From an uncultured Verrucomicrobiota bacterium (GTDB lineage: Bacteria > Verrucomicrobiota > Verrucomicrobiia > Limisphaerales > UBA9464), in assembly GCA_903939515.1 (NCBI GenBank), contig CAJAHH010000007.1, forward strand, positions 1-49,623: a DNA stretch of 49,623 nt. The letters are read 5' to 3'. Both the position numbers and the translations under genes were made by a program. The notes under the pieces were generated by a model. It made no database searches and was not told the DNA's origin. It saw only the letters and a list, made by a program, of their open reading frames with translations. Within the stretch, counting starts at the first letter, position 1. Each line of letters opens with the position of its first letter. Positions 3-38,339 of the stretch are shown piece after piece.

Positions 3-3000
3 CAACTCGATACGTCCCTTGGGGCCCGTCCGGACCGTCGCATGAAAGTGGTGACACTCCGTCAGGGGAAGGTGAGCGAAATGTCAGCCCGGGTCCGCCA
101 ACTCTACAACGATCAGTCCCGCAACCAGCCCGACCTAGCCCTATCGGATTTGCTCGTTCTCGATGATGCCACCAGCAACCAACTCATCCTGGCCGGCAGC
201 GACGCTCAACTGGCATTGGTCGACACCATCTTGGAACAACTCCAAAAAAACGCCGCCACGCTGGGACCTCGTGAGACTCGACCCATCAACGTAGGCCAGC
301 CCGATGAAGTCATCCGGATCCTTCCCCTGCTCCGTCAGCTCTACACCGAACGCTGGAAGAGTCAGGATGCGGCGGACCCTGCCGATGCTGTGTTCACCGG
401 CGACGCGCCCAATGGCCGAATCCTGGTCACCGCACGCACCAATCATCTGGCCGAGATCGAGACTCTTCTGGGAGTAATACAAGCGCCCACCTCAACCCCT
501 GCACCGCGTGAAACCCGGGTGCTGAATTTGGCAGAGCGTCAGGCCACTGAACTGGCAGGCACGGTTCGTTCGCTGTACGAAGATTCCCTCAAGGCCAAGC
601 CCGTTCCGCCCTCCGAGCAGGCCGTCATCCGCGTCGACACCGAGGGCAACCGCCTCATCGTTACGGGCCGAACCAACGACCTCGAACAAATTGCCACTCT
701 GGTTCTCAATCTCGATACCGCCAATCAACGTTCCGGCAATTCCCGAATTTTCCGCCTGACCAACGCCGAGCCTGCTCAGGTCGCCGCCGCTCTCTCCAAT
801 ACGCTGGCCAAGTTGGACCCCTCTGGCCGACTCACCCCCCGCGTGACCCTTGGTGTGGATGCCAAGGCCCGAACACTGATGATTTCCGGCGAGGCCAAGG
901 ATCTTCAGGCCGCTGAGCAAATCGTCACACAACTCGATGCCACAACCACCCGAGAGCCCCGAGACCTCCAGATCCTAAACATCCCGCAAGGCTCCGCTTC
1001 GGAAGCGGTCGCCCGCCTTCGCCCGCTGGTCATCGATCAACTGAAAGCAGCCGGCAATGCCGCGGACTTAATCCTCATTCCGGATGACAATCAATCGAGG
1101 GTGCTGGTGACCGCTAATGCGGCCCAATGGAAGGCTGTTCAAGACATCGCCTCTCGGTTGCTGACAGCAGATACCAATTCGGTCCGCGGCGTTCGCAGCC
1201 TCCCTCTGCAACATGTGACGGCCGCACCCGTAATCACCCTGCTCGGACAACTCTTCTCCCGAGAAATGGCTCTGACCGAAACGGCCCAGCGGTTGGTCGT
1301 CACACCTGCCCTCGACGAACGCTCACTGCTGGTCAGCGCGCCGCCCGCCATTTTCGAGCGAGTACAATCGGTGATTCAATCGGTGGATGTCTCGGATCCG
1401 GGTGGGTCTTCAGTCATCCAGACCGTACAACTGCGCAAGACGGTGGCCGAGACGGTGGCCGAATCGGTGAGTAAGGCCATCGCCGGCAAGGGCACCGACG
1501 CCAAGCTGCGCCGGGTCAGCATTACTCCGGTCACCGGAGCCAATGCCCTGCTGCTCAATGGGCCCGGCGAGGCCGTCCAGGAGGTCATGAAGCTGGTCAA
1601 GGAACTGGATGCTGAAAGTGCCACCGGCGAAGTTGAAGTCCGCATTTACAAGCTCAACAGCGCCAACGCCACGGACATCCAACCGGTGCTCTTGCAATTG
1701 TTGGCCAATGTTAGCAGCCGACTCGAACGCCGCGGAATTGGTTCACGCGCCCAACCAGCCATCGCCATCGATCCGCGATCCAACAGCCTGCTCATCACGG
1801 CATCGGCCACCCACTTCAAGCTCATCGAGCAACTGCTTCCCACTTTGGATAAGGCACCGGAACGTTCCGATCGCGACGTTCAGTTCGTCTGGCTGCAGAA
1901 CGCACGCGCCGCCGATATCCGCATGAAAGTGGCCGCTGTCTATGAAGATCGATCCCGGGGAGAACAGCCCGTCCTGGAGGTAGATCGCGAGGCCAATACG
2001 CTGACGGTCATCGCTCGGCGTTCCGACATGCCGCAAATCCAAGACTTGATCCAGCGGCTCGACACCTCCGCCCAAGACAACAGCCTCCAGGTCCGGCTCA
2101 TGACCGTGGAGGACGTCCCCGTGGATCAAATGATCGGCATGCTGACCAACATCTATCCGCAGATGTATGGGACCTCGCTCAAACTAGTGAATCGCTTGCC
2201 GGCTCTGGATCGAACCAAGACCAACAATCCCGCTAAGGCGTCCGAAGTCACCGTGGCCCTGGACCGGAATGCCAACGCTTTAATCCTCTCAGGCCCAGCT
2301 CCAGAACTGGATCGGATCAACCGCATGATCATCGACCTCTCTTGGAAGGCCTCCTCGGGTGAGAGCGATCTGCGCATTCTCGCGCTGACACAGGCCGACC
2401 CCGTCGTCATGGCCCGAACCTTGAACAATGTCTTTCGTCCCGGCGGCGGGCGGGGTGGTGATCAACCCCAGCCCCAACCCCAGCAAAGTCAGCGCCCTCC
2501 CCGCTTCACGGTCGTACCAGAACCCCGTTCCCGAAGCCTGCTGGTGCGAGCCTCCGCAAAAGATTTTTCTATCATTGAAGCGCTGGTCAAACAGCTCGAT
2601 ACCGCCAACCCCGCGGCCGACCTGTCCCACCGCCTGATCACCCTCACTCACACACCGCCGGCCAAGATTAGCCCATTGGTCCAGCAACTGGTGCAGCAAC
2701 TCAGCGCTCAGCATCCGGGGGATCTTTTAACAGTACTGCCTTACGGTCGTTCCAAAGGGTTACTGGTCGTCGCTCGTGAACCCCTGATCGCTCAGGTGGA
2801 AAAGATGATCAAGACACTCGATACGCCCAGTGAGGATGCCGAGGCCGAGGTCCGGGTCTTCACACTCAAGCAGAGCGCTGCACCGGCTATGGCCACCACC
2901 CTCCAAAACCTGCTCCGTCCGGGGATCGCTGGTGAGGCGGGTTCTGAAGCGCGCGAACTCCAGGAACAGGTCCGCAAGCTCAACATCCGCAGCGACTCTG

Positions 3001-6000
3001 GAGACTCTGTCGCCCTCGACTTGCAACGTCCCATCAAGATCACGGCCGACCCCAGCGACGGCAATCGCTTGCTCATCACTTCCACTGCAAAAAACCTCGA
3101 GGCCCTCGCCAAGGTCGTCGAGATGCTCGACCAAATTGGCTCAGCGGAGGCGGCCGACTTCGCTGTCGTGGCCTTGCTTCACGCAGATGCCCGCACCACA
3201 GGGCAGAATTTGACGGCCATCTTTGCTCAGGGAGCCAAGCTCGGGACCCGGCAAGATGGCCCCGGCAAGCCTGAGGCCGGATCGGCCCGCGCCTTAGCCA
3301 GCCCGCTGAATGTCACCCCAGATGCCCGACTCAATGCATTGATCCTGTCAGGTCGGAAGGATTCCATTGAACTGGCCAGAAAACTCATCAAGGACCTGGA
3401 TAAGCAATGGGATGCTGCTGTCACCGAGGTGAAAGTATTCCGGGTGAAGTACGCAACCCCGTCCCGTTTGTTGCCCATGCTCCAATCGGTGTTCACCGAG
3501 GGCCCGGCGGTCCCAGGAACTGAAGGGCTCAACAACTACGTCAGTCGTCTTCAGACCCGACGTGACGGTGGCAAAGCCGTCTCCACCGAGCAGGCCAAGA
3601 CACGCACCGCACTCACCCTCCAGGCCGACGACAACGTCGGAGCCCTCATCGTGGCTGCCCGTGCGGACACCCTCCCCCTGATCGAGGAACTGCTGAACCA
3701 ACTCGACATTCCCGATGCTTCGGGCCTGAGCACCGTTCGCATCTATCCCCTCAAACATGCCGATGCCTCGGCTGTGCAGAAGATCATCTCGGACCTGCAT
3801 TCCGGCGCTCGCAACGCCAGTGCCAAACCCAGTGACCGCCCGACGATCACCCTCGATGAGCGAAGCAACTCAATGATTGTGTCGGGCAACGACAAAGCCT
3901 TCGCCATCATCGACAACTTGATCGCCCAACTCGACAAGCCCATGGCTCCGGAGTTCCGGGATATTCGCATACTGCCTTTGGCCCATGCCGACGCCGCACA
4001 ATTGGCCGCGACCCTTCAACGACTCATGGACCAACGCGTGGCCCGCCAGGGATCTCTCGGAAAAGGCCAGGCCGACAGCCTCCGCATCTTGATCCTGCCG
4101 GAACCTCGATCTAACAGCCTCTTAGTTGGTGGCGGCAAAGATGCCTACGAATTGGTCGAGTCCCTCGCCCGCAAGCTCGACGACGCCGCCCCAAGTCTGA
4201 CCGGTGGAGTTCGTATCGTTCCGATGGAGTACGCTGACGCGCGCATCATTTCTGCCTCGTTGAACCAGCTGTTCACCCAGCGCTACCAGGCCAGCACCTC
4301 TCCAGAAACCCAGCGTCAAAAGCCCGTCATTCTGCCCGATGCCCGAGTCAACGCCCTCATGGTCTCCGCCGGCCGCGAAGACAACGAAACCATCGACGCC
4401 CTGCTGAAGAAGCTCGATCGCAAGCTCGACAACCCGTCATTGGCTTTGACGGTTTTGCCCCTGAAGCACAATGACGCCGCCAAGGTGGCTGTAACCCTCG
4501 AAGGCGTTTTTGCCGCCCGCATGCAGGCCCGCAGTTTGCCAGGCCAAGCCCCCTCCCCTACCGACCGGGTGGAGATCCAGACCGACAGCCTCAATAACTC
4601 CCTGATTGTCTCTTCCAACAAAGAGAACCTCGACCTCATCCGCGACCTCCTCACCCGCATCGACGTGGAGCCCACTGTCGCTGAAGGCGTGTTGGAAACC
4701 TTCGTCCTCAAGCATGCCGACGCTCAACGGGTCTCCACGATGCTCAAGAGTCTGGTTCAACAAGGCATGTACCGACCGGGCCGTTCCGACGTCAAGATTC
4801 CGGGCCAAGCAAGCCGGGATGCCATGGCCATTGCCGTGGATATCCGAAGCAACACGCTCATGGTTTCGGCCAGCCCGGACAATCTAGGCCTCATCAAGGA
4901 AATCATCTCCAAGGTCGACACGTTGGACTTCGTGGCCGCCACCGACCTAAAGGTATACCGGTTGGAACACGCCCGTGCCTCCAACTTGGCAGGAGTGCTC
5001 ACCCAGTACCTTCAAGCACGTAAAGCAGCCGACTCCGCCTCACTCAACGCTTCCGAACGCAGCATGCCTGTGGCCGTGATCGCCGACACCCGCCTGAACG
5101 CCATCTTGGCGACCGGATCCAAGGAAGCCATCGACATGCTTGATCGCATCGTACCCCAACTCGATGCCGAAGATCGTCTGGCCCAGCTTAATTTTCGGGT
5201 GTTCCCCCTCAAGGAGGCCACCGCGATTCGCTTGCAGACAACCTTGCAGCGACTCTTCGCAAACCGTCCCCCCAAGACCCGGGGTGAACCTGTGGACCCG
5301 ATCACCGTGGTCGCCGACTCCTGGGTGAACGCTCTCATCGTGGGAGCCGTCGTCGAAGACATCTCCATGGTCGACGGCCTCATTCGACGCCTCGACACCC
5401 AGCAGGCGGAACTCGGCCTGAAGGTCGAAGTCATTCCCCTCGCCAAGGCCGACGCCCGTAAGGTGGCCCTGACCGTTCAGGGACTCTTTCGCGAGGGCAC
5501 CCAAGGCGGACCGTTGCCCATTGTGGTAACCGCCGACGAGCGTGTGAATGCGTTGGTCGTCTCTTCCGGTGCCGCTGATCTGAAGCGCATCCGCGACGTG
5601 GTGGCCAAGCTCGACACCGACCAAACCGCCCGCGTCAGCGAAATCCGCGTGATCCCCCTAAAGTACGCCCGCGCCGAAAATCTGACCCTGGTCCTGAACA
5701 CCTCCCTCAATTCTAAGATCACCTCGTTGGCTGACCTGAGCCCGAGCGCACAGTCAGTGCTTCAATTCGTGACCCGCACCGAAGACGGTAAGGAACTCGT
5801 CACCGCCGCACTCAAGGAGGCTATCTCCATCACCCCGGATCCGCGAATGAATGCCCTCGTCGTGTCTGGACCGGTCGACTACATGGGCCTGCTGGAGCAA
5901 ATCGTTGGACGCCTCGACAACAGCTCATCGCGAGAAGCCAAGATTCGAGTGTTCTCGCTGCGCAACGCCGACGCGCAACAGACAGCGCAGCTCCTGCTGT

Positions 6001-6515
6001 CGATGTTTCGGATGCAACCCAGTGGCAATGCCGCGGCCGGCACTGGCCAGCGCACCATCCAGTACACCTTAATGAAACCCGGAGCGGATGGCACCGAGAC
6101 TCCCAGTGCCACGGCTGTGATCGGATCCGAAGAACAGACGGCATTGAACGTGAGTGTCGACCCCCGCACCAACACCCTACTCGTCGGCGGCACCGAGCAT
6201 TACGTGGCCCTCGTTCAGCAAATCATCGAAACGTTGGATTCATCCGAAGCACTGGAGCGCAAAACCGAAGTCTATCGCCTCAAAAACGCCCAGGCCGCTG
6301 ATGTCGGCACCGCCATCCGCAGCTTCCTCGACCAAGAACGTCAACGTGTCACCCAAGTGCTGGGCGCCGATGCCGTCGGCACCGCGCAGCGCCTTCTCGA
6401 ACGTGAAGTGGCTATCGTGCCCGAGCAGGTCAGCAACACCCTGTTGCTTTCCGCCAGCCCGAGGTATTTCGAGCAAATTCATCAAATCATCGAAGAGCTA
6501 GACCAGGCCCAATCC
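3..6515 (+). repeat. Protein-level tandem repeats: 26 secretin N-domain-like units
   Basis: Twenty-six diverged copies of one fold-sized unit lie head to tail inside the secretin gene. Boundaries can be followed by the recurring LD-type ending of each unit and the VxxLKxADA-type start of the next. Some units (for example those around 2100-2380, 2850-3160, 3430-3720 and 5640-5940) carry longer loops between the first strand and the core. Divergence is high at the DNA level, so this is an old internal expansion and not a recent tandem duplication. Confidence 0.85.
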
Positions 6516-7397
6516 CAAGTACTCATTCAAGTCCTGCTCGCCGAAGTCACCCTCGATTCCAACCGCGACCTGGGCTTCGAATGGAGCTTCACTAAGAACA
6601 TCGGCAACGGATGGAATGTCGGAACCGGAACCGACTTTGGCATCCCAACCCAAATGCAGAATTTCGGCGGCTATTCTGCGCTAGTCACCGGCAACAACAT
6701 GCAATTCCTCATGCGGGCCCTGGAAAACGACGGCCGCGTGGAGGTCTTGAGCCGCCCTCAGATCCTCACCGCCGACAACAAAGTCGCCTCGATCAACATT
6801 GGCCAACGGGTCCCGATCATCACCGGAAGTTCCACGACCCCCCAGGGTGGACAAATCAACACCTTCGACTACCGCGATGTCGGAGTGAATCTAACAGTCA
6901 CCCCGCGCATCACCGGCGAAGGCTTTGTTAAGATCGACGTCGGTGCCACCAACAGCTCCTTGGCCAGTTCCAGCGTAGAGATCAACGACAAGGCCACGGT
7001 TCCCATCATCAATGAGCGTCGCGCTTCCACCACGGTCACCGTGCAAAGCGGACAGACCGTGGTCATCGGCGGCCTCATCGGCACTGTGGACGACGTTCGC
7101 CGCAAAAAGACTCCATTCCTCGGAGACATTCCGGGAGTCGGCTTCTTCTTCCGCAGTTCCTCCAAGAAATCGGAACGGCGTGAGCTCCTCATCATGCTAA
7201 CCCCCCAAGTGCTCACGGCCAACCACGAGCAGGAGCCAAAAATCACAACCATCGGGAACTACTCGACCCGCATGCTGGAGAAGTCGACCCTCCGCGGAGC
7301 TGAGCGCAAAGACCCCTTGAAGACCCAGTTGATGGATTCGATCTTCCCGAACGACATCAACGCCTCCAAAACCAACGCACCGGCCGGCAAGAAGTGA
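3..7397 (+). CDS. Giant secretin with at least 26 N-domain-like repeats (5'-partial)
   Basis: This is an outer-membrane secretin of the GspD/PilQ superfamily, which forms gated channels for type II secretion or type IV pili. The frame is open to the window edge: codons from base 3 read QLDTSLGARPDRR before the first ATG at 42. That matches the end of a repeat, so the gene starts upstream and 42 is an internal Met. About 6.5 kb encodes 26 consecutive units of roughly 70-110 residues. Each has an opening strand like VxxLxxADA, a variable loop, a core like DxRxNALIVSG, and a closing helix ending LIxxLD. The secretin domain begins near base 6519. It shows RVPIITGSS, then YRDVGVNLTVTPRI, SGQTVVIGGLI, and KTPFLGDIPGVGFFF followed by ELLIMLTPQVL. 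A charged tail of about 60 residues follows. Ordinary secretins have about 3-6 N domains. The stop overlaps the next gene. The attached machinery is not visible. Confidence 0.9.
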   Translation, partial: QLDTSLGARPDRRMKVVTLRQGKVSEMSARVRQLYNDQSRNQPDLALSDLLVLDDATSNQLILAGSDAQLALVDTILEQLQKNAATLGPRETRPINVGQPDEVIRILPLLRQLYTERWKSQDAADPADAVFTGDAPNGRILVTARTNHLAEIETLLGVIQAPTSTPAPRETRVLNLAERQATELAGTVRSLYEDSLKAKPVPPSEQAVIRVDTEGNRLIVTGRTNDLEQIATLVLNLDTANQRSGNSRIFRLTNAEPAQVAAALSNTLAKLDPSGRLTPRVTLGVDAKARTLMISGEAKDLQAAEQIVTQLDATTTREPRDLQILNIPQGSASEAVARLRPLVIDQLKAAGNAADLILIPDDNQSRVLVTANAAQWKAVQDIASRLLTADTNSVRGVRSLPLQHVTAAPVITLLGQLFSREMALTETAQRLVVTPALDERSLLVSAPPAIFERVQSVIQSVDVSDPGGSSVIQTVQLRKTVAETVAESVSKAIAGKGTDAKLRRVSITPVTGANALLLNGPGEAVQEVMKLVKELDAESATGEVEVRIYKLNSANATDIQPVLLQLLANVSSRLERRGIGSRAQPAIAIDPRSNSLLITASATHFKLIEQLLPTLDKAPERSDRDVQFVWLQNARAADIRMKVAAVYEDRSRGEQPVLEVDREANTLTVIARRSDMPQIQDLIQRLDTSAQDNSLQVRLMTVEDVPVDQMIGMLTNIYPQMYGTSLKLVNRLPALDRTKTNNPAKASEVTVALDRNANALILSGPAPELDRINRMIIDLSWKASSGESDLRILALTQADPVVMARTLNNVFRPGGGRGGDQPQPQPQQSQRPPRFTVVPEPRSRSLLVRASAKDFSIIEALVKQLDTANPAADLSHRLITLTHTPPAKISPLVQQLVQQLSAQHPGDLLTVLPYGRSKGLLVVAREPLIAQVEKMIKTLDTPSEDAEAEVRVFTLKQSAAPAMATTLQNLLRPGIAGEAGSEARELQEQVRKLNIRSDSGDSVALDLQRPIKITADPSDGNRLLITSTAKNLEALAKVVEMLDQIGSAEAADFAVVALLHADARTTGQNLTAIFAQGAKLGTRQDGPGKPEAGSARALASPLNVTPDARLNALILSGRKDSIELARKLIKDLDKQWDAAVTEVKVFRVKYATPSRLLPMLQSVFTEGPAVPGTEGLNNYVSRLQTRRDGGKAVSTEQAKTRTALTLQADDNVGALIVAARADTLPLIEELLNQLDIPDASGLSTVRIYPLKHADASAVQKIISDLHSGARNASAKPSDRPTITLDERSNSMIVSGNDKAFAIIDNLIAQLDKPMAPEFRDIRILPLAHADAAQLAATLQRLMDQRVARQGSLGKGQADSLRILILPEPRSNSLLVGGGKDAYELVESLARKLDDAAPSLTGGVRIVPMEYADARIISASLNQLFTQRYQASTSPETQRQKPVILPDARVNALMVSAGREDNETIDALLKKLDRKLDNPSLALTVLPLKHNDAAKVAVTLEGVFAARMQARSLPGQAPSPTDRVEIQTDSLNNSLIVSSNKENLDLIRDLLTRIDVEPTVAEGVLETFVLKHADAQRVSTMLKSLVQQGMYRPGRSDVKIPGQASRDAMAIAVDIRSNTLMVSASPDNLGLIKEIISKVDTLDFVAATDLKVYRLEHARASNLAGVLTQYLQARKAADSASLNASERSMPVAVIADTRLNAILATGSKEAIDMLDRIVPQLDAEDRLAQLNFRVFPLKEATAIRLQTTLQRLFANRPPKTRGEPVDPITVVADSWVNALIVGAVVEDISMVDGLIRRLDTQQAELGLKVEVIPLAKADARKVALTVQGLFREGTQGGPLPIVVTADERVNALVVSSGAADLKRIRDVVAKLDTDQTARVSEIRVIPLKYARAENLTLVLNTSLNSKITSLADLSPSAQSVLQFVTRTEDGKELVTAALKEAISITPDPRMNALVVSGPVDYMGLLEQIVGRLDNSSSREAKIRVFSLRNADAQQTAQLLLSMFRMQPSGNAAAGTGQRTIQYTLMKPGADGTETPSATAVIGSEEQTALNVSVDPRTNTLLVGGTEHYVALVQQIIETLDSSEALERKTEVYRLKNAQAADVGTAIRSFLDQERQRVTQVLGADAVGTAQRLLEREVAIVPEQVSNTLLLSASPRYFEQIHQIIEELDQAQSQVLIQVLLAEVTLDSNRDLGFEWSFTKNIGNGWNVGTGTDFGIPTQMQNFGGYSALVTGNNMQFLMRALENDGRVEVLSRPQILTADNKVASINIGQRVPIITGSSTTPQGGQINTFDYRDVGVNLTVTPRITGEGFVKIDVGATNSSLASSSVEINDKATVPIINERRASTTVTVQSGQTVVIGGLIGTVDDVRRKKTPFLGDIPGVGFFFRSSSKKSERRELLIMLTPQVLTANHEQEPKITTIGNYSTRMLEKSTLRGAERKDPLKTQLMDSIFPNDINASKTNAPAGKK

Positions 7398-7954
7398 TGG
7401 CCCAACACCCCTCTCAACACAGCATCACCCCCTTCATCTGGATGCTGACCTGTGCCCTGGCGTTGGGTGCGGGGGGGTCAGCGGGCTGCACCACAGGGGC
7501 ATCCCGTGGCGACGGAGGGAGCGTCAGCAGCCCCAATAAAAAGCCCAAACGCACATCCGGCATCCTAGAACTGCATCTACTCACCATGCCCGTCGCCTTG
7601 AATTTGGACGGGGCCCCGGGACCCGACGGAGTAGCCGTGAAACTCTTCGCCAACGTGGGCAACGCCGCCAAACCAGCACCGATCCGCAGTGGCGAAATTG
7701 AAATCCTGCTCTTTGACGGACTGCTGAGCGACAAAAACCTCCCCTCGCTCCAACCGGCTCACACCTGGACCTTCACCGCCAAAGAACTTAAAGAGTTTGA
7801 AACGCAGGCCATGGTAGGCACCGGATACCAACTCACCCTGCGCTGGGGCAGCTTCAAACCGAAGAGTGACAGAGTCTCCATCATCGCCCGTCACCCGATC
7901 GGAGACGGACGCTACCTATACTCCACACCCGGAGTCATCGCCTGTTCGCCCTGA
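7397..7954 (+). CDS. Small lipoprotein coupled to the giant secretin
   Basis: This 185-residue protein has a hydrophobic signal segment (residues about 12-29) ending in a lipobox-like SAGC, so Cys31 is the likely lipidated residue. After a Gly/Ser-rich linker comes a compact, mostly beta region with PGPDGVAVKLFAN, GEIEILLFDGLL and GYQLTLRWGS. This vaguely recalls transthyretin-like small lipoproteins, but I do not recognise the family. The secretin stop and this ATG overlap as TGATG (an upstream in-frame GTG at 7394 is an alternative start), so the two are translationally coupled. Position and lipidation make a pilotin or an assembly/stabilising partner of the secretin a reasonable guess. That is inference from context only. 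Confidence 0.75.
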   Translation: MAQHPSQHSITPFIWMLTCALALGAGGSAGCTTGASRGDGGSVSSPNKKPKRTSGILELHLLTMPVALNLDGAPGPDGVAVKLFANVGNAAKPAPIRSGEIEILLFDGLLSDKNLPSLQPAHTWTFTAKELKEFETQAMVGTGYQLTLRWGSFKPKSDRVSIIARHPIGDGRYLYSTPGVIACSP

Positions 7955-12548: not shown

Positions 12549-13306
12549 CCAAGGCGAGGGTAAAGAATCAAACCCGTCCACCGCCCGCACCGACGTAACC
12601 GTGGGTTCTGGCGCGTGGCGGCAACCCAAAATCGACTCACAATAGAAAAACCGCGGACCGGCACCCATGAAACCCTGACGAATGCTCCAGCAAACACGGA
12701 GACGAAACCGGAGCGATGCTATTGGGAGGAAGGTGATGGCATGCCTCATTCTTTCGTTAGATGAAGGCCAGAGCGAGGCGCCAGCCACGCTGAAGCTCGT
12801 GCTTGAGGCCCGCAAAGAGCGAACCGCGACGCTCTTGCGGAAGAAGGCGCAGCCAGCACGACCGATCCAACCGGATCACTTCGGATAAAGATTCTAGCCA
12901 GTCGGTACGCATGGATTGCTAAAATCCCACCTCACCAACACTCCCCGAGCCGTAGGCCTGAACCCAAGGCTTCCTAACTGCATCACCACGCTGATGCTCT
13001 ATAGAGAGCAATCTCCCGACCGATAAGATTTTTTATTAAATTCAAAAAACAGCAGCAGGTTAGGATCTTTCCGTACACATCAGCGTCAAAATTTTCCTAG
13101 TACTGCGACCTCCCTTGACTTGAAGCCAACCGACTGAAATCTCGCTATCAAAGGTTCACGCGATCGTAACAGTCCATCGAATCGCTTTTTAAACTTCCGG
13201 CATCGCCTGGATGGCGAATCGTCAGAAAAAAAGCGTTTTGAGGGAAATCGGGGTCCATCGGCTACTAACCCGGCCGGCGGTATCTGAAGCAAACCTTGTA
13301 ACAACC
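12549..13306. other. Long intergenic region without a convincing gene
   Basis: Open frames here are short, overlap each other on both strands and have no recognisable protein character. The stretch contains a diverged copy of the dispersed element (12712-12764). Near 13028-13050 there is an AT-rich patch (TTTTTTATTAAATTC), and TTGACT at 13115 could be part of a promoter for the downstream LamG gene, but no good -10 box follows at the right distance. I see no riboswitch or RNA gene I can name. Confidence 0.5.
12712..12764 (+). repeat. Dispersed element, diverged copy 2
   Basis: This 53-bp stretch aligns without gaps to 46015-46067, with 39 of 53 positions identical. The shared blocks are TTGGGAGGAA, TGATGGC and ATTCTTTCG. 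With the inverted repeat at 12505 it suggests a family of small non-coding elements in this genome. Confidence 0.55.
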
Positions 13307-16300
13307 ATGAAACGCCAAATCCTCAAATTGACGGGCCTGCTCGCGCTGGTCTCCAGCGCGGCGACGACCTTGACGGCGGACTACGCCTCCACGGTCTCCA
13401 ACCTCAAGCCGGTCGCCTTCTGGCGCCTGAATGAGACTACGCAACCTCCCGCTGCTGACGTAGCGGTGAACGCTGGTTCCCTGGGCAACTCTGCCGTGGG
13501 TTACTATCTGGGAACAGCCCAGCACCCGGTTCCTGGAGCCTTGAATGGCCGCACCGACAGCGCCGTGGGCTTCGATGCCACCGCCAACTCGGTAACCATG
13601 GTGCCTTACATGCCGGAAATGAATCCCAAGGCCCCCTTCACGGTGGAAGCCTGGCTGAGCCCGAATGTCGAGCACGCTGTGGGATCCGGCACCCTGACGT
13701 GCGCCATTTCCAGCGGCCAATTTGCCGCCCCCCGCACCGGTTGGTTGATCTACCAGTCGGAGACGGGTTGGAACCTCCGCATGTACAACAACAATGGAAC
13801 CGCCACCTCGGTGAACATCAGTGGTGGAACGGCTCCCGTGTCTGGCATGTGGTACCATGTGGCGGCGGTTTACGACGGTGCGACCGCTAAGTTGTTCGTC
13901 AACGGTGCCAAGGCGGCTGAAGCAGCCCAAACCAGCTATGTTCCCGGCCAATCGGGCGGTTTCGCCATCGGCGGCCGCGCGGACGGTTCGTTCTGGTGGA
14001 ATGGCTCCGCCGACGAAGTGGCCCTCTACAGCAAGGCCCTGACCACCGAAGAAATTTCCGCTCACTACGCCAACGGCACGGCCACCAGCCCCGCCGCCAC
14101 CTACCAGAGCCTCGTTCTGGCCCAGGCTCCCATCGCCTACTACCGACTGAACGAAGGCACCTACGCCGCACCGGCCAGTGTGCCTCCAGCCGCCAATACT
14201 GGCACGGCGGGCGCTTCCATCGCCGCCTCGTACAACCCTGGCATGAAGGCGGGCGCGGATGGCCCGAAGCCGCCGATCTACACCGGATTCGAAGCCGCCA
14301 ACGTGGGTGGTGGGTTCAATGGTTCGGCCGGCTATGTCGGCACTCCATTCCAAATGAACGACATGACCGAATTCACCATGATGGGCTGGGTCCGGCGGGG
14401 TGCCGTCAAGAGCAGCCGTGGCGGCTACTTCGGCCAGAACGACCTGCTTGAGTTCGGCGACGCGGATGCCGGCGCCAACATCGAACTGTGGGTCAACGCC
14501 CGCGGCGGCAACATCAAGTCTGCCTATCCCTTCAAGGACAACGAGTGGGGCCACTTTGCCGTCATCGGCAGCGCCACCTCCACCGTCCTGTATGCCAACG
14601 GCAAAGAAATCGGCCGACTGAGCGGAACGGTGGCCAGCTATGGCACCAGCAGCTTCAACTTCAACATCGGTGGCGGCGGGATCTTCAACACCGCCGGCGA
14701 CTACTTCCAAGGCAACATCGATGAAGTCGCCGTTTTCGATAAGGCACTGAGCGCGGCCGACATCCAGTCGATTTACTTCTCGGCTAATGTGGCTCCGACC
14801 ATCACCCAGCAACCGACCCTCCCGAGCCGCACCCTCTTTGCGGGTTACTCGGTCAACTTGACGGCTGCCGCCAGCGGCACGCCTCCCCTCACCTATCAGT
14901 GGCGCAAGGACGGCCAGAATCTGGCCGGCAAGACCTCTTCCACCCTGTCGCTGAGCGGCGTGAGCGCGGCGGATGCAGGCGCCTATGACATCGTGGTGAC
15001 GAGCGCCTACGGCTCCACTAGCAGCACCCCGGTCGCCCTGGTGGTGACTCCTGCCGACACGGTGGCTCCGACACTCCAGTATGCCGCAGGCGTTGCCAGC
15101 TTCGACAAAGTGCGGATCTGGTTTTCGGAACCCTTGGATCCGACGACCGCGCAGTTGGCGGCCAACTACAAGATCGAAGGTCTCACCGTCACCGGTGCGG
15201 CCTTGGTAGCCCCGGCGGGCAGCGTCGGCGACAACATCGTCGAACTGACAACCTCCAAGCAGACCGCCGGTCAGAGCTACAAGATTACGGTTACGGGCGT
15301 GAAGGATCAGATGGTACCCGCCACCACGATTGCAGCCAACTCGACGATCAGCTTTGGCTCCTGGCAACTGGCTTCTGGCGCCCTGCGCTTCGAACACTAC
15401 GACAATCTCCCGAGCGCGAGCGACGCCGCCATTACAACCGCACTGGATGACCCCCGCGTGATCGCCGGCACACCGACAACGCTCGGAACCATCACCGGTC
15501 GTTTCGACACCCGCACGGTGTTCCCGGATGACAGCCATGAAAACTACATGGCCCGAATCACCGGCTTCATCACCCCGACCGAGTCGGGTGACTACTACTT
15601 CTTCGTGGCCTCCGATGATGCTTCCCGCGTTTATCTCAGCGCGAACGAAACGATGCCCAACCCGGCCACCGACACCCCGATCGTCAACGAACCCGCTTGC
15701 TGCAAAGGCTTCCTGGAGCCCGAATCCGGATCCCCGCAAACCACGGCCGCACCGATCAATCTGCAGGCCGGCAAGAAGTACGCGATCCTGACGCTGCTCA
15801 AGGAAGGCGGCGGCGGCGACTGGCTCAAGGTGGCTTGGCGCAAGTCCACCGATACCACTGCATCGGCCACATTGGCCCCCATCGAGGGCAAGTACCTGTC
15901 CACCTTCGTGGATCCGAATGCCGAAGTGGAATTCACCAAGCAGCCGACCAATCAGGAGGGCGCCCTCTCCACCTCGGCGGTCAACTTCCTCACGCAGGCT
16001 TTCACCTCCAGCGACGGCGGCTTCACGGTCACCAACACCACCCCAGAGCCTCCGGGCCCCTGGGTGTATGACCCGGCCAATGGCGTTTGGTCGGCCGACG
16101 GTTCCGTGGACGGTTGCGGCGGCCCTTACAACTCGCGCCTGAATTCGGCGACCTACACGGTGCCGGAGTCCCTGGCCGTGACCCTAAACTTCTCGCACCG
16201 CTATTCCTTCGAAGGTGACTTCTATGATGGCGGCCAAGTGCTCGTCAGCGTCAACGGCGGGGCCTTCACCGTGGTTCCGGGTGACAACTTCACGGCCAAT

Positions 16301-16945
16301 GGCTATGCCAACAGCGTGATCCAGGGCAGCGGTGTCCTCAAGGGGCTGCGCGCCTTCAATGCGGATTCTGCGGGCTATGCGGCTGGCAGCTTCATCACCA
16401 GCTCCGCGATCCTTGGCACCTTTACCAAGGGCGACAAGATCGTGGTCCAGTTCCTGGGCGGCTGGGACGACTGCTCCAAGGCCAGCACCCCGAGTTGGCA
16501 AATCAAGGAAGTCAAACTGGCTGTCAGCTCGCCGCCCACCGCGGTGACCTTCGACGGCACCGCCAAGGTGACCCGTCAAGGTGTGGGCACCTCGTTCAGC
16601 TACCAATGGCAGCGCAACGACGGCTCGGGCTTCGTGGACATCGCCAACGCGACCGGCACCTCGTACCGGTTCTTCCCGACCACCCCGTCGGATATCTCCG
16701 CGAGCTACCGCCTGTTGGCGGGGGTCCCGGGCAAGATGGTCTCCAGCGTCGACGTGAAGGTCACTCCTCCGCGCCCGACGCTCTCGCTCAGCCGCACCGC
16801 CGACGTGATCACGGTCACCTTCACGGGCAGTCTGCAATCGTCCACCTCGCTCACCGGGCCGTTCTCCAATGTGACCGGCGCAACGAGCCCCTACGCGGTG
16901 CCCGCCCCAACCGGCGGCAGCCTGTTCTTCCGCAGCATCAAGTAA
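13307..16945 (+). CDS. Secreted LamG/Ig/PA14 multidomain protein
   Basis: This 1212-residue exported protein starts MKRQILKLTGLLALVSSAA, a standard signal peptide; the open frame extends 32 codons upstream without protein-like character. Domains in order are as follows. Two LamG/concanavalin-type jelly rolls (residues about 40-255 and 268-495) each open with a VAFWRLNE- or IAYYRLNE-type motif and end with DEVALYSKAL or DEVAVFDKAL. An Ig-like domain (about 497-582) has YQWRKDG and DAGAYDIVV. An SbsA-type Ig domain (about 585-682) has VRIWFSEPLD. A PA14-like domain (about 690-848) has TESGDYYFFVASDD. A MAM-like beta region (about 873-1080) and a second Ig-like domain follow. The C-terminal module has LQSSTSLTGPF and ends FFRSIK. 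Such proteins bind carbohydrate or surfaces, but no enzyme domain is present. It is monocistronic with a strong terminator. Confidence 0.88.
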   Translation: MKRQILKLTGLLALVSSAATTLTADYASTVSNLKPVAFWRLNETTQPPAADVAVNAGSLGNSAVGYYLGTAQHPVPGALNGRTDSAVGFDATANSVTMVPYMPEMNPKAPFTVEAWLSPNVEHAVGSGTLTCAISSGQFAAPRTGWLIYQSETGWNLRMYNNNGTATSVNISGGTAPVSGMWYHVAAVYDGATAKLFVNGAKAAEAAQTSYVPGQSGGFAIGGRADGSFWWNGSADEVALYSKALTTEEISAHYANGTATSPAATYQSLVLAQAPIAYYRLNEGTYAAPASVPPAANTGTAGASIAASYNPGMKAGADGPKPPIYTGFEAANVGGGFNGSAGYVGTPFQMNDMTEFTMMGWVRRGAVKSSRGGYFGQNDLLEFGDADAGANIELWVNARGGNIKSAYPFKDNEWGHFAVIGSATSTVLYANGKEIGRLSGTVASYGTSSFNFNIGGGGIFNTAGDYFQGNIDEVAVFDKALSAADIQSIYFSANVAPTITQQPTLPSRTLFAGYSVNLTAAASGTPPLTYQWRKDGQNLAGKTSSTLSLSGVSAADAGAYDIVVTSAYGSTSSTPVALVVTPADTVAPTLQYAAGVASFDKVRIWFSEPLDPTTAQLAANYKIEGLTVTGAALVAPAGSVGDNIVELTTSKQTAGQSYKITVTGVKDQMVPATTIAANSTISFGSWQLASGALRFEHYDNLPSASDAAITTALDDPRVIAGTPTTLGTITGRFDTRTVFPDDSHENYMARITGFITPTESGDYYFFVASDDASRVYLSANETMPNPATDTPIVNEPACCKGFLEPESGSPQTTAAPINLQAGKKYAILTLLKEGGGGDWLKVAWRKSTDTTASATLAPIEGKYLSTFVDPNAEVEFTKQPTNQEGALSTSAVNFLTQAFTSSDGGFTVTNTTPEPPGPWVYDPANGVWSADGSVDGCGGPYNSRLNSATYTVPESLAVTLNFSHRYSFEGDFYDGGQVLVSVNGGAFTVVPGDNFTANGYANSVIQGSGVLKGLRAFNADSAGYAAGSFITSSAILGTFTKGDKIVVQFLGGWDDCSKASTPSWQIKEVKLAVSSPPTAVTFDGTAKVTRQGVGTSFSYQWQRNDGSGFVDIANATGTSYRFFPTTPSDISASYRLLAGVPGKMVSSVDVKVTPPRPTLSLSRTADVITVTFTGSLQSSTSLTGPFSNVTGATSPYAVPAPTGGSLFFRSIK

Positions 16946-35335: not shown

Positions 35336-35376
35336 AATATAAATAAACCACCCTCTCAAACTGATAGGATTCATTG

Positions 35377-36060
35377 ATGAAATTTTACGTTGCATCGTTG
35401 CTATTTGGAATCTTACTCTTGATCTTTATTTTAAGTTCAAGGAATCACGTTTCCATAAGTGATCCAGCAAAAATAGTAACACCAACTATTGCTCAAGAGC
35501 TATCTCCAGATCCCAAAAATAACCCTGCGTTTCAGCGCTCCAACCATCTGAAACAACTTCACGAATCAAAGAACGGCGAGACGGTACAGCTAATAGATCT
35601 AAAAAATATGGTCAAGGCTGCACATCCGGCCGCAGAACAATTGGCTGATTTATTGTTGGAAAGCGGTTTTACTCAGCAAGAAGCAGCACAAATTTTTGTG
35701 AGTGTTCATAATGACCTCGGGAGGATACGGCAGATTGAAGATATGGTGGCGACGGATTGGATTGAAATAACAGCAGGGATTGCAAAGCTTGAGCAGCGTA
35801 CGGATCTTACTGAAGCGCGAAAAAGACAAGAATATTATTCAGAGTCTTCTAGGTTAAGTTTTTTGAACATTGATATGCGAGGGGAACAGTCCAAGATACG
35901 AGAAAGGTTGTTAGAAACTGTAGGTGTACCCCGCAGTGCGGAAATAGATTTATTTCGAAGCCAGTTACTTTCCATATTTCCGCGCGGTCCATTGCCCGAT
36001 ACGGTAATTCAAGAACTTGAGAATACCACCCGGAATCTGATTAAACGCGACTCACCGTAA
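35377..36060 (+). CDS. Membrane-anchored protein of unknown family (AT-rich cassette, gene 2)
   Basis: From ATG 35377 (a TTG immediately upstream is also in frame) the product has 227 residues. One N-terminal hydrophobic segment (VASLLFGILLLIFILSS) would anchor it in the inner membrane with the rest in the periplasm. The rest is mostly alpha-helical and charged: MVKAAHPAAEQLADLLLESG, FVSVHNDLGRIRQIEDMVA, then a linker and SSRLSFLNIDMRGEQ. The middle and this last block resemble gene 3 of the cassette (see that entry), so the two appear to be diverged paralogues. No catalytic motif or known domain is seen. The sequence is visibly AT-rich. The gap to gene 1 is 41 bp. Confidence 0.72.
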   Translation: MKFYVASLLFGILLLIFILSSRNHVSISDPAKIVTPTIAQELSPDPKNNPAFQRSNHLKQLHESKNGETVQLIDLKNMVKAAHPAAEQLADLLLESGFTQQEAAQIFVSVHNDLGRIRQIEDMVATDWIEITAGIAKLEQRTDLTEARKRQEYYSESSRLSFLNIDMRGEQSKIRERLLETVGVPRSAEIDLFRSQLLSIFPRGPLPDTVIQELENTTRNLIKRDSP

Positions 36061-37426: not shown

Positions 37427-38339
37427 GTCAGTTCTTGATATTGGGTACTCACCGCCCAGCTTCCTCCGGCGATACAAGAGATGGTTCAGATAACCGCGCG
37501 TGCCCATCGCCAGACGCTTGGCGATCTACCCCACCGTCATCGCCGTCTCCGCCCGCAAGCGCGCAGCCAAAGCCACCTTCATTGCCCCCCTTGGGCCGAG
37601 TTTTGAGATCAGCTTCCTGCCACCGCCCCCGCTTCAACTCTCCCGCGATGATTAGTTCCGCCAGCGCCTCCGCCGTCTCCGCGCGCTCCTCGCCGTAACG
37701 CTCCGCCCCCATCCGCTCGCTCATCTGCGTCAGCAACTCCTCCCGAAACTTCTCTTCGCCCAGACATCAGCCGCACCGTTCCTCCAACGCCTGCTCAAGC
37801 CGTTGCCGCCCCTCCGGACTGTCCTTGGGGACGCCCCACTCGCCCAGCAACCGATCCACCTGCAACCACGCCGAACGTTTCGAGCGCGCGAGCAAGTACG
37901 CCGGCCAACTGCTCCAGGCAAAACTCTGCAAGGGCGCGTCCGCTGCCACCAGTTTCGCTCGCGCCGGATTCAAGTGGACGTAATCGCCCACGCTCTTGAG
38001 ATAACCGCTGCCCGATCCGTCCACGATCAGCGACTTGTAGCGCCCAGAGAACAAGTGGCCGAAGAGCTTGTGACGCCGGTTGAAGCGACTCGTGGAAGTG
38101 CCCAGCAACCATTTCATCCCGGCGACCAGATTGGGCTGCGGCGTCTCGACCACCCAATGAAAATGATTCGGCATGAGGACATAGGCGTGAACCTGCCAGC
38201 CCGTCTTAGCGCAAACCTCGCCCAGCGTGTCGACGAAGCGCTGGCGATCCGCATCATCAATGAAAATTATTTCGCGCCGGTCACCGCGATTCATGACGTT
38301 ATAAATCCCGCCAGCCTACTCGACTCTTAACTGGCAGGC
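37386..38339 (-). pseudogene. REP-associated tyrosine transposase (RAYT), multiply inactivated
   Basis: RAYTs are single-copy Y1 transposases of the IS200/IS605 superfamily that mobilise REP sequences. The longest open part (38294 to 37767) shows NRGDRREIIFIDDADRQRF, the HUH motif in YVLMPNHFHWVVETP, and the catalytic-tyrosine region GDYVHLNPARAKL. Lesions are visible by reading through. TAG at 38316-38318 replaces the usual Tyr in a LRVE-Y-AGGIYNVMNRG-type start. TGA at 37767-37769 sits where RAYTs have Trp (CG-stop-CLGEEKFREELL). A frameshift near the G run at about 37588 moves the frame to VALAARLRAETAMTVG. A second TAG at 37526-37528 again replaces Trp (TVG-stop-IAKRLAMG). The tail ends LYRRRKLGGEY. 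With four lesions it cannot be functional, but the recognisable sequence means decay is fairly recent. Confidence 0.88.
37421..37442 (+). repeat. REP-like end, left side of RAYT element
   Basis: AAAGGGGTCAGTTCTTGATA and the following TT (37421-37442) form the inverted counterpart of the right-side repeats at 38376-38440, with a single A/G difference. It overlaps the end of the transposase reading frame. Confidence 0.8.

Follow-up and report, generated by a model that had tools for sequence, protein, structure and literature searches.

About 43 ring-type domains in a giant GspD-like secretin of Verrucomicrobiota

The stretch of DNA analysed here (the window) comprises bases 1-49,623 of contig C7, from a Verrucomicrobiota genome bin of 4.7 megabases in 160 contigs, and its first gene, which is gspD-like and still open at the contig start, codes for a giant secretin. 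We confirmed that this protein, nearly 4,000 residues long, is an outer-membrane secretin of the type II kind with about 43 ring-type domains and one pore, and that its last two thirds lie within the window. Given that ordinary secretins have about three to six ring-type N domains, the channel of this protein may far exceed the normal depth of a cell envelope. The best explanation, to which we assign a probability of about 0.6, is that it is a divergent GspD of the type II secretion system (T2SS) belonging to one order of Verrucomicrobiota, made of an N0-like start, about 43 N1-type domains and the C-module, whose domains would form stacked rings and thus a tunnel through a deep periplasm. What has been seen in favour of this explanation is the sequence, the number of domains, the operon, the co-occurrence of genes, the purifying selection and the fold of four domains. 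The features involved, all on the plus strand, are the following.

3..7397, plus strand: 3' portion of the gspD-like gene for the giant type II secretin, one open reading frame (ORF) of 2464 amino acids, 5'-open at the contig start
42..6506, plus strand: 26 consecutive Secretin_N domains (beta-alpha-beta-beta-alpha, ring-building), from 26 matches to Pfam PF03958 and from our own iterated profile
3729..4676, plus strand: window N domains 16-19, four in a row, modelled with AlphaFold2, predicted local distance difference test (pLDDT) 79, predicted template modelling score (pTM) 0.57
6717..7214, plus strand: complete Secretin pore domain PF00263, residues 2239-2404, 167 bits against a cut-off of 27.5 (Pfam)
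7215..7394, plus strand: C-terminal tail with a weakly conserved segment, from an alignment of 27 C-termini
7397..7954, plus strand: small lipoprotein-like gene, its start overlapping the secretin stop (TGATG)

An earlier reading of the letters alone (the sequence-only reading) had claimed a giant secretin with at least 26 N-domain-like units in front of a single pore domain, and both points were borne out. Pfam, which we used as the neutral count, finds Secretin_N in 26 stretches of the window protein (expectation value (E) 9.3e-232, 750 bits) together with one Secretin domain, and our own N-domain profile, iterated from a single repeat, likewise gives 26, far from the fewer than ten matches that would have spoken against this claim. 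For the full-length frame of the relative G003, the counts are 38 by Pfam and 43 by our own profile. The latter fits the giants specifically and counts too few N domains in ordinary secretins, since it found one match in seven and none in three of ten other secretins, which should have more than one each. An artefact of the profile was ruled out by the independent Pfam count and by a shuffle control, in which 20 shuffles of a full-length giant gave 1 match in all vs. 43 in the unshuffled protein. Some KH-like Pfam matches (KH_DEAH11, PARP14, and others) sit on the N domains, and we took them as a shared fold. Behind the pore, the C-terminal tail is possibly a partner-binding one.

In alignment with the stop-to-stop frame of G003 (3956 residues), the window protein covers residues 1494-3956, and its 26 N domains are estimated to be domains 18-43 of 43. 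Searching with the N-terminal part of a relative, we found the 5' half of the giant gene on contig C102 of the same genome, where it reads off the contig end. This part has 18 domain matches, the last of them being the window's first domain again, and the end of C102 overlaps the window start over 190 base pairs with 94% identity, without an exact end overlap; both the C102 and the C7 parts are colinear with G003. From this overlap and the colinearity we infer the joint between the two separate contigs, and by estimate, the whole gene of the source genome would code for about 3950 amino acids with 17 + 26 = 43 N domains, as in its colinear relatives. The sequence-only reading was therefore right in expecting that the true number of repeats exceeds 26, and in the place of an upstream frame break into another gene, the same protein carries on upstream on C102.

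Whole frames, from stop to stop, were also taken from 25 other genomes, and these rule out an artefact of a single gene; G203 was left out because its stretch holds the 3' end of the gene only (984 amino acids, 5'-open). The 25 frames are 2928-5155 amino acids long and have 29-56 uninterrupted N domains, namely 29, 29, 35, 38, 40, 42, 42, 43 (13 genomes), 45, 47, 47, 47, and 56, with G025 counted as 43 or 42 depending on the length filter. The spacing between N domains is never larger than 30 residues, and the median linker is 8. Collinearity, defined by reciprocal best matches of single domains against G003, showed that the distinct domains stand in the same order in the 16 frames compared: all 43 of 43 domains are collinear in G008, which is of the same genus, 40 in G120 and G031, 39 in G137, G141, G226, G023, and G109, 28 in G036 and G147, and 23 in G206 and in the 29-domain forms G092 and G094, with G137, G120, and G226 being comparisons with other families. 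Mostly, the differences in number concern the region of domains 20-23, domain 7 (which G022, G028, and G226 lack), and recent block duplications (G109). The longest giant of all, on contig C60 of G109 (L091/L092), has 5155 amino acids and 56 domains, among which very similar pairs lie two and four domains apart (e.g., 18/22, 30/32, and 31/35), suggesting recent block duplications.

In three same-genus pairs, the ratio of nonsynonymous to synonymous substitution rates (dN/dS) was 0.00-0.16 in each of the domains, N0 and the pore having 0.04-0.08; domains 20-23 were among the highest, with domains 5, 28, and 31 similar to them. Identity between G003 and G137 reaches 79-81% at domains 8, 11, and 17 and falls to 23-30% at domains 22-23, which are the least conserved between families in three comparisons (21-36%). 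The one-to-one collinear domains and the low dN/dS together indicate that the expansion is old, that the individual domains keep their identity, and that the array is under purifying selection.

Judging from its sequence and its gene neighborhood, we identify the giant protein as GspD of a type II secretion system. Its top NCBIfam model is TIGR02517 (type_II_gspD) with 824.7 bits vs. 343.2 bits for the PilQ model, both of them above their cut-offs and summed over the repeats, and the solved chains nearest in sequence to its last 465 residues are the T2SS secretins 6hcg, 5wq7, and 6i1x. The type IV pilus secretin PilQ was ruled out as an alternative identity because the GspD model scores higher and T2SSG and T2SSK genes are part of the operon. 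In this genome, gspG, H, K, L, and M lie on C102 directly upstream of the giant gene, and gspE and gspF are on C10; the upstream genes of G003 have Pfam matches to T2SSG, GspH, T2SSK, and a PilM-like protein (GspL), besides a GspM-like gene, and gspE and gspF were typed in G008. The T2SS core thus identified consists of E, F, G, H, K, L, and M, where GspL was called by a PilM_2 match, GspM only by where it lies and by a weak match to PF04612 (E 0.069), and gspI and gspJ were not recognised as separate genes. A GspM-like protein with an insertion of about 190 residues, in a frame of 538-552 amino acids, occurs in one other family (G036 and G145-G148) and in G153.

The gene order around the giant gene was mapped by tblastn in 26 stretches. 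The order gspE-F-G-H-K-L-M-giant-lipoprotein is present in G226, G109, G092, G008, G004, and G029, while gspE/F are turned round in G023, set apart in G031, and not found within 54 kilobases (kb) in G003. Upstream sets without E/F were found in G120, G094, G137, G206, and further genomes, most of these stretches being cut off early, and in G022 (25 kb seen upstream) and G028 (0.9 kb seen upstream), the lipoprotein was the only neighbor matched. G036 has the order giant-lipoprotein-gspE-gspF, G147 starts alike up to the contig end just inside gspE, and G203 has the lipoprotein and, further on and reversed, gspF-gspE. The N0-like segment of G003 is recognisable in 23 of the 25 N-termini, the other two (G206 and G094) not being reached by the motif search. 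For the fibre or surface pit that had been offered as another meaning of the repeats, nothing was found in favor, and both the operon and the layout from the N0-like start to the pore are those of a secretin.

Homologues of the adjoining lipoprotein follow the giant gene in 25 of the 26 stretches, the exception being G206, where it is on a different contig from the secretin. A single Cys ends its hydrophobic signal-like segment, and about 130 amino acids form a conserved domain, with eight invariant columns in an alignment of 15 sequences. The window lipoprotein matched no Pfam family at E<=10, including the known pilotin families (GspS/AspS/PilF type), and therefore we propose for it only a pilotin-like way of working, as a candidate pilotin or assembly partner.

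The giants were surveyed in 217 genomes of the order, each at least 85% complete, where the number of Secretin_N matches per genome has a bimodal distribution: 71 genomes have at least 26, 146 have 16 or fewer, and none lies in between. At most 26 first-look candidates per genome are scored in this survey, so values of 26 and above are not exact, and the placement in a single frame is confirmed for the 25 whole frames only. These 71 genomes fall patchily in 18 of 48 families. The expansion was found in none of 239 other genomes of the phylum (highest Secretin_N count, 15) and in none of 199 genomes of a second phylum, that of a Propionivibrio bin (highest count, 9). With the lipoprotein profile, 66 of the 71 giant-bearing genomes and 6 of the 146 others gave a match (Fisher 3.6e-42), and with the GspM profile 70 and 3 of them, respectively (Fisher 4.1e-52), the genomes being related, so that these Fisher values are not true probabilities. 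Giant-bearing genomes without a lipoprotein match number five (G010, G033, G111, G146, and G215). Conversely, six genomes have the lipoprotein without at least 26 N-domain matches (G024, G030, G145, G153, G202, and G224). Stretches were fetched from five of these, all but G030: in G024 and G202, no N-domain frame adjoins the lipoprotein, and the contigs of G153, G145, and G224 stop at the lipoprotein or shortly behind it (following nine N domains in G145). The 13 close named matches come from bins titled Verrucomicrobia, Verrucomicrobiota, or Verrucomicrobiales, four of them bearing the title “Akkermansia muciniphila” (L030, L034, L038, and L039); the latter carry the gene at 82-97% identity to the window, and their titles look wrong.

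The sequence-only reading had also proposed predicting the structure of adjacent repeats, and the AlphaFold2 model of the four domains listed above gave the N-domain fold of the GspD/XcpQ type, in the form of four beta-alpha-beta-beta-alpha units. N domains of T2SS secretins rank top in a fold search with this model (VIA-align). Two consecutive modelled domains superpose on XcpQ 5mp2_A with a Z score of 10.7 and a root-mean-square deviation (rmsd) of 4.0 over 130 residues, and single domains superpose on GspD at 1.3-2.4 Å (9k8v, 5w68, and 5wln). Fold matches outside the secretins (Pcc1 and phosphoglucosamine mutase) were set aside as common alpha/beta arrangements. By sequence, the domains of the array are of the ring-building type with short linkers, and in the model four of them fold as the N domains of GspD/XcpQ do.

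Compared with known systems, the giant shares with GspD/PulD/XcpQ a putative N0-like start, the N1-type domains, the Secretin C-module, the gspE-M genes, and the top sequence and fold matches. It differs from them in having about 43 N1-type domains vs. three (N1, N2, and N3; PMC10550240), no GspC by Pfam in the genome, and an adjoining lipoprotein of no Pfam family. PilQ of Thermus thermophilus has an extended stack of N rings, as the giant would have if its domains stack; in PilQ, these are six N rings in a complex of 350 Å, a length that its authors regard as a plausible adaptation to a wide periplasm (PMC5745081, PMC4463427), whereas the giant would have about 44 layers and lies in a T2SS operon instead of serving a type IV pilus and DNA uptake. 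Planctomycetes, of the same superphylum, have an enlarged, convoluted periplasm, and their crateriform structures fasten the outer to the cytoplasmic membrane (PMC5394234), a membrane-to-membrane link in an enlarged periplasm, as the giant would be. We found no molecular identity for these structures there, the word “secretin” is absent from the main text of that paper, and the genomes surveyed here are those of Verrucomicrobiota and of the second phylum. For some Verrucomicrobia, claims of a planctomycete-like plan have been reinterpreted in terms of an enlarged periplasm (PMC3422733, PMC5945725). We found no description of such a giant secretin in the open-licence literature searched, which is without preprints, so a report elsewhere is possible; the words “giant secret...” appear once in PMC6155069, the abstract of which concerns the type III needle complex.

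As to how the giant would work, we infer the oligomer, its stacking, its length in nanometres, the deep periplasm, the role of the lipoprotein, and the piston, the structural model being that of a single chain. The N domains would stack ring on ring, like the few N rings of ordinary secretins, and the oligomer (a 15-mer if like the known GspD) would form a periplasmic tunnel of roughly 0.1-0.2 micrometres, matched in length to a locally deep, invaginated periplasm. A long pseudopilus would drive folded substrates from the inner-membrane platform through the tunnel to the pore, the T2SS pseudopilus being able in principle to lengthen by subunit addition, and the downstream lipoprotein would help to bring the secretin to the outer membrane or to anchor it there. 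One N domain is about 2.5 nm thick, and 44 layers at 2.5-5 nm each, the latter value corresponding to 350 Å over seven layers, would reach about 110-220 nm, and a complex of 15 such chains, each of 3950 residues, would amount to about 6.5 megadaltons. The most demanding form of this proposal, i.e., one continuous tunnel of about 44 rings and 0.1-0.2 micrometres, each ring with its own conserved identity, which fixes or bridges a very deep periplasm, we place a little short of an even chance.

Several results weigh against the stacked tunnel. The longer superpositions of the modelled domains are poor (rmsd 6.0 over 174 residues on XcpQ 5ngi_A, and 14.7-21.9 Å on the cryo-electron microscopy entries of GspD, with 5wq7_A at rmsd 19.8 over 124), and since the model is besides a single chain at pTM 0.57, the stacked-ring placing of neighboring domains is not demonstrated; a model covering the pore and the four N domains before it was itself poor (pLDDT 50). 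The N0 model PF21305 (type_II_gspD_N0) matches residues 85-146 of G003, the one protein concerned, with 24.3 bits, below its cut-off of 27. A search of this genome for GspC (PF11356), which would be the inner-membrane docking partner of N0 and is not itself a part of GspD, found nothing at E<=10, although a divergent GspC may be missed (the control search found PF11356 in 3 of 14 named genomes). The variation of 29-56 domains is unexpected for a strict ruler of a fixed depth. No measurement of the periplasm depth of these organisms was found in the literature examined, and the authors of PMC3422733 doubt that the planctomycete envelope extends to all Verrucomicrobia.

The main rival keeps the same T2SS secretin with rings formed by the first and last few N domains only, the dozens in the middle being a flexible tether or a compact bundle, by which N0 could reach the inner membrane at a variable distance. 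The low conservation of the middle domains 22-23 between families would agree with this, as would the clustering of most number differences near domains 20-23 while both ends of the array align one to one, the lack of a stacked geometry in the four-domain model, and the flexibility of the N-module reported for XcpD (PMC10550240). The array, however, has no spacer or gap above 30 residues anywhere, and all 43 domains are matched by the domain profile and are under purifying selection; we favor the long stacked channel and regard the tether as rather unlikely. Still less probable is that the N region works as a storage or sorting chamber, or as an array binding substrates, peptidoglycan, or partners, with a length unrelated to the envelope depth: specific sites would suit the position-specific conservation (79-81% at domains 8, 11, and 17 vs. 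23-30% at 22-23), but no separate binding module was found, the other Pfam matches being weak or KH-like and on N domains sharing that fold. Mis-assembled or collapsed repeats deserve mention because the source genome is fragmented into its 160 contigs and the gene is broken over two of them; against the 25 whole frames from different genomes, the same domain order in 16 of them vs. G003, and purifying selection throughout, we give this hardly any credence.

Secretin length may follow the depth of the periplasm, as the authors of the Thermus PilQ work suggest (PMC4463427). With about seven times the six ring domains of PilQ, and a number kept at 43 in 13 of 25 frames from several families, the giant secretin implies either a very deep local periplasm in Verrucomicrobiota, whose cell plan is debated, or some other use of ring-building domains. 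If the stacked channel is true, its tunnel would be far longer than that of the six-ring PilQ and would give the dispute over a deep-periplasm cell plan in the superphylum a molecular handle.

Elsewhere in the window, a frame of 1244 amino acids at 13211-16945 (plus strand) has weak fimbrial matches (TafC and ZirU) and overlaps a frame of 824 amino acids at 13265-15739 (minus strand). The ORF at 35374-36060 has a third-position GC of 0.38 vs. about 0.6-0.75 in most of its neighbors and is possibly foreign DNA or not a gene, and the start of the ORF at 37767-38294 (minus strand) has what we take to be a resemblance to transposases associated with repetitive extragenic palindromes (REP).
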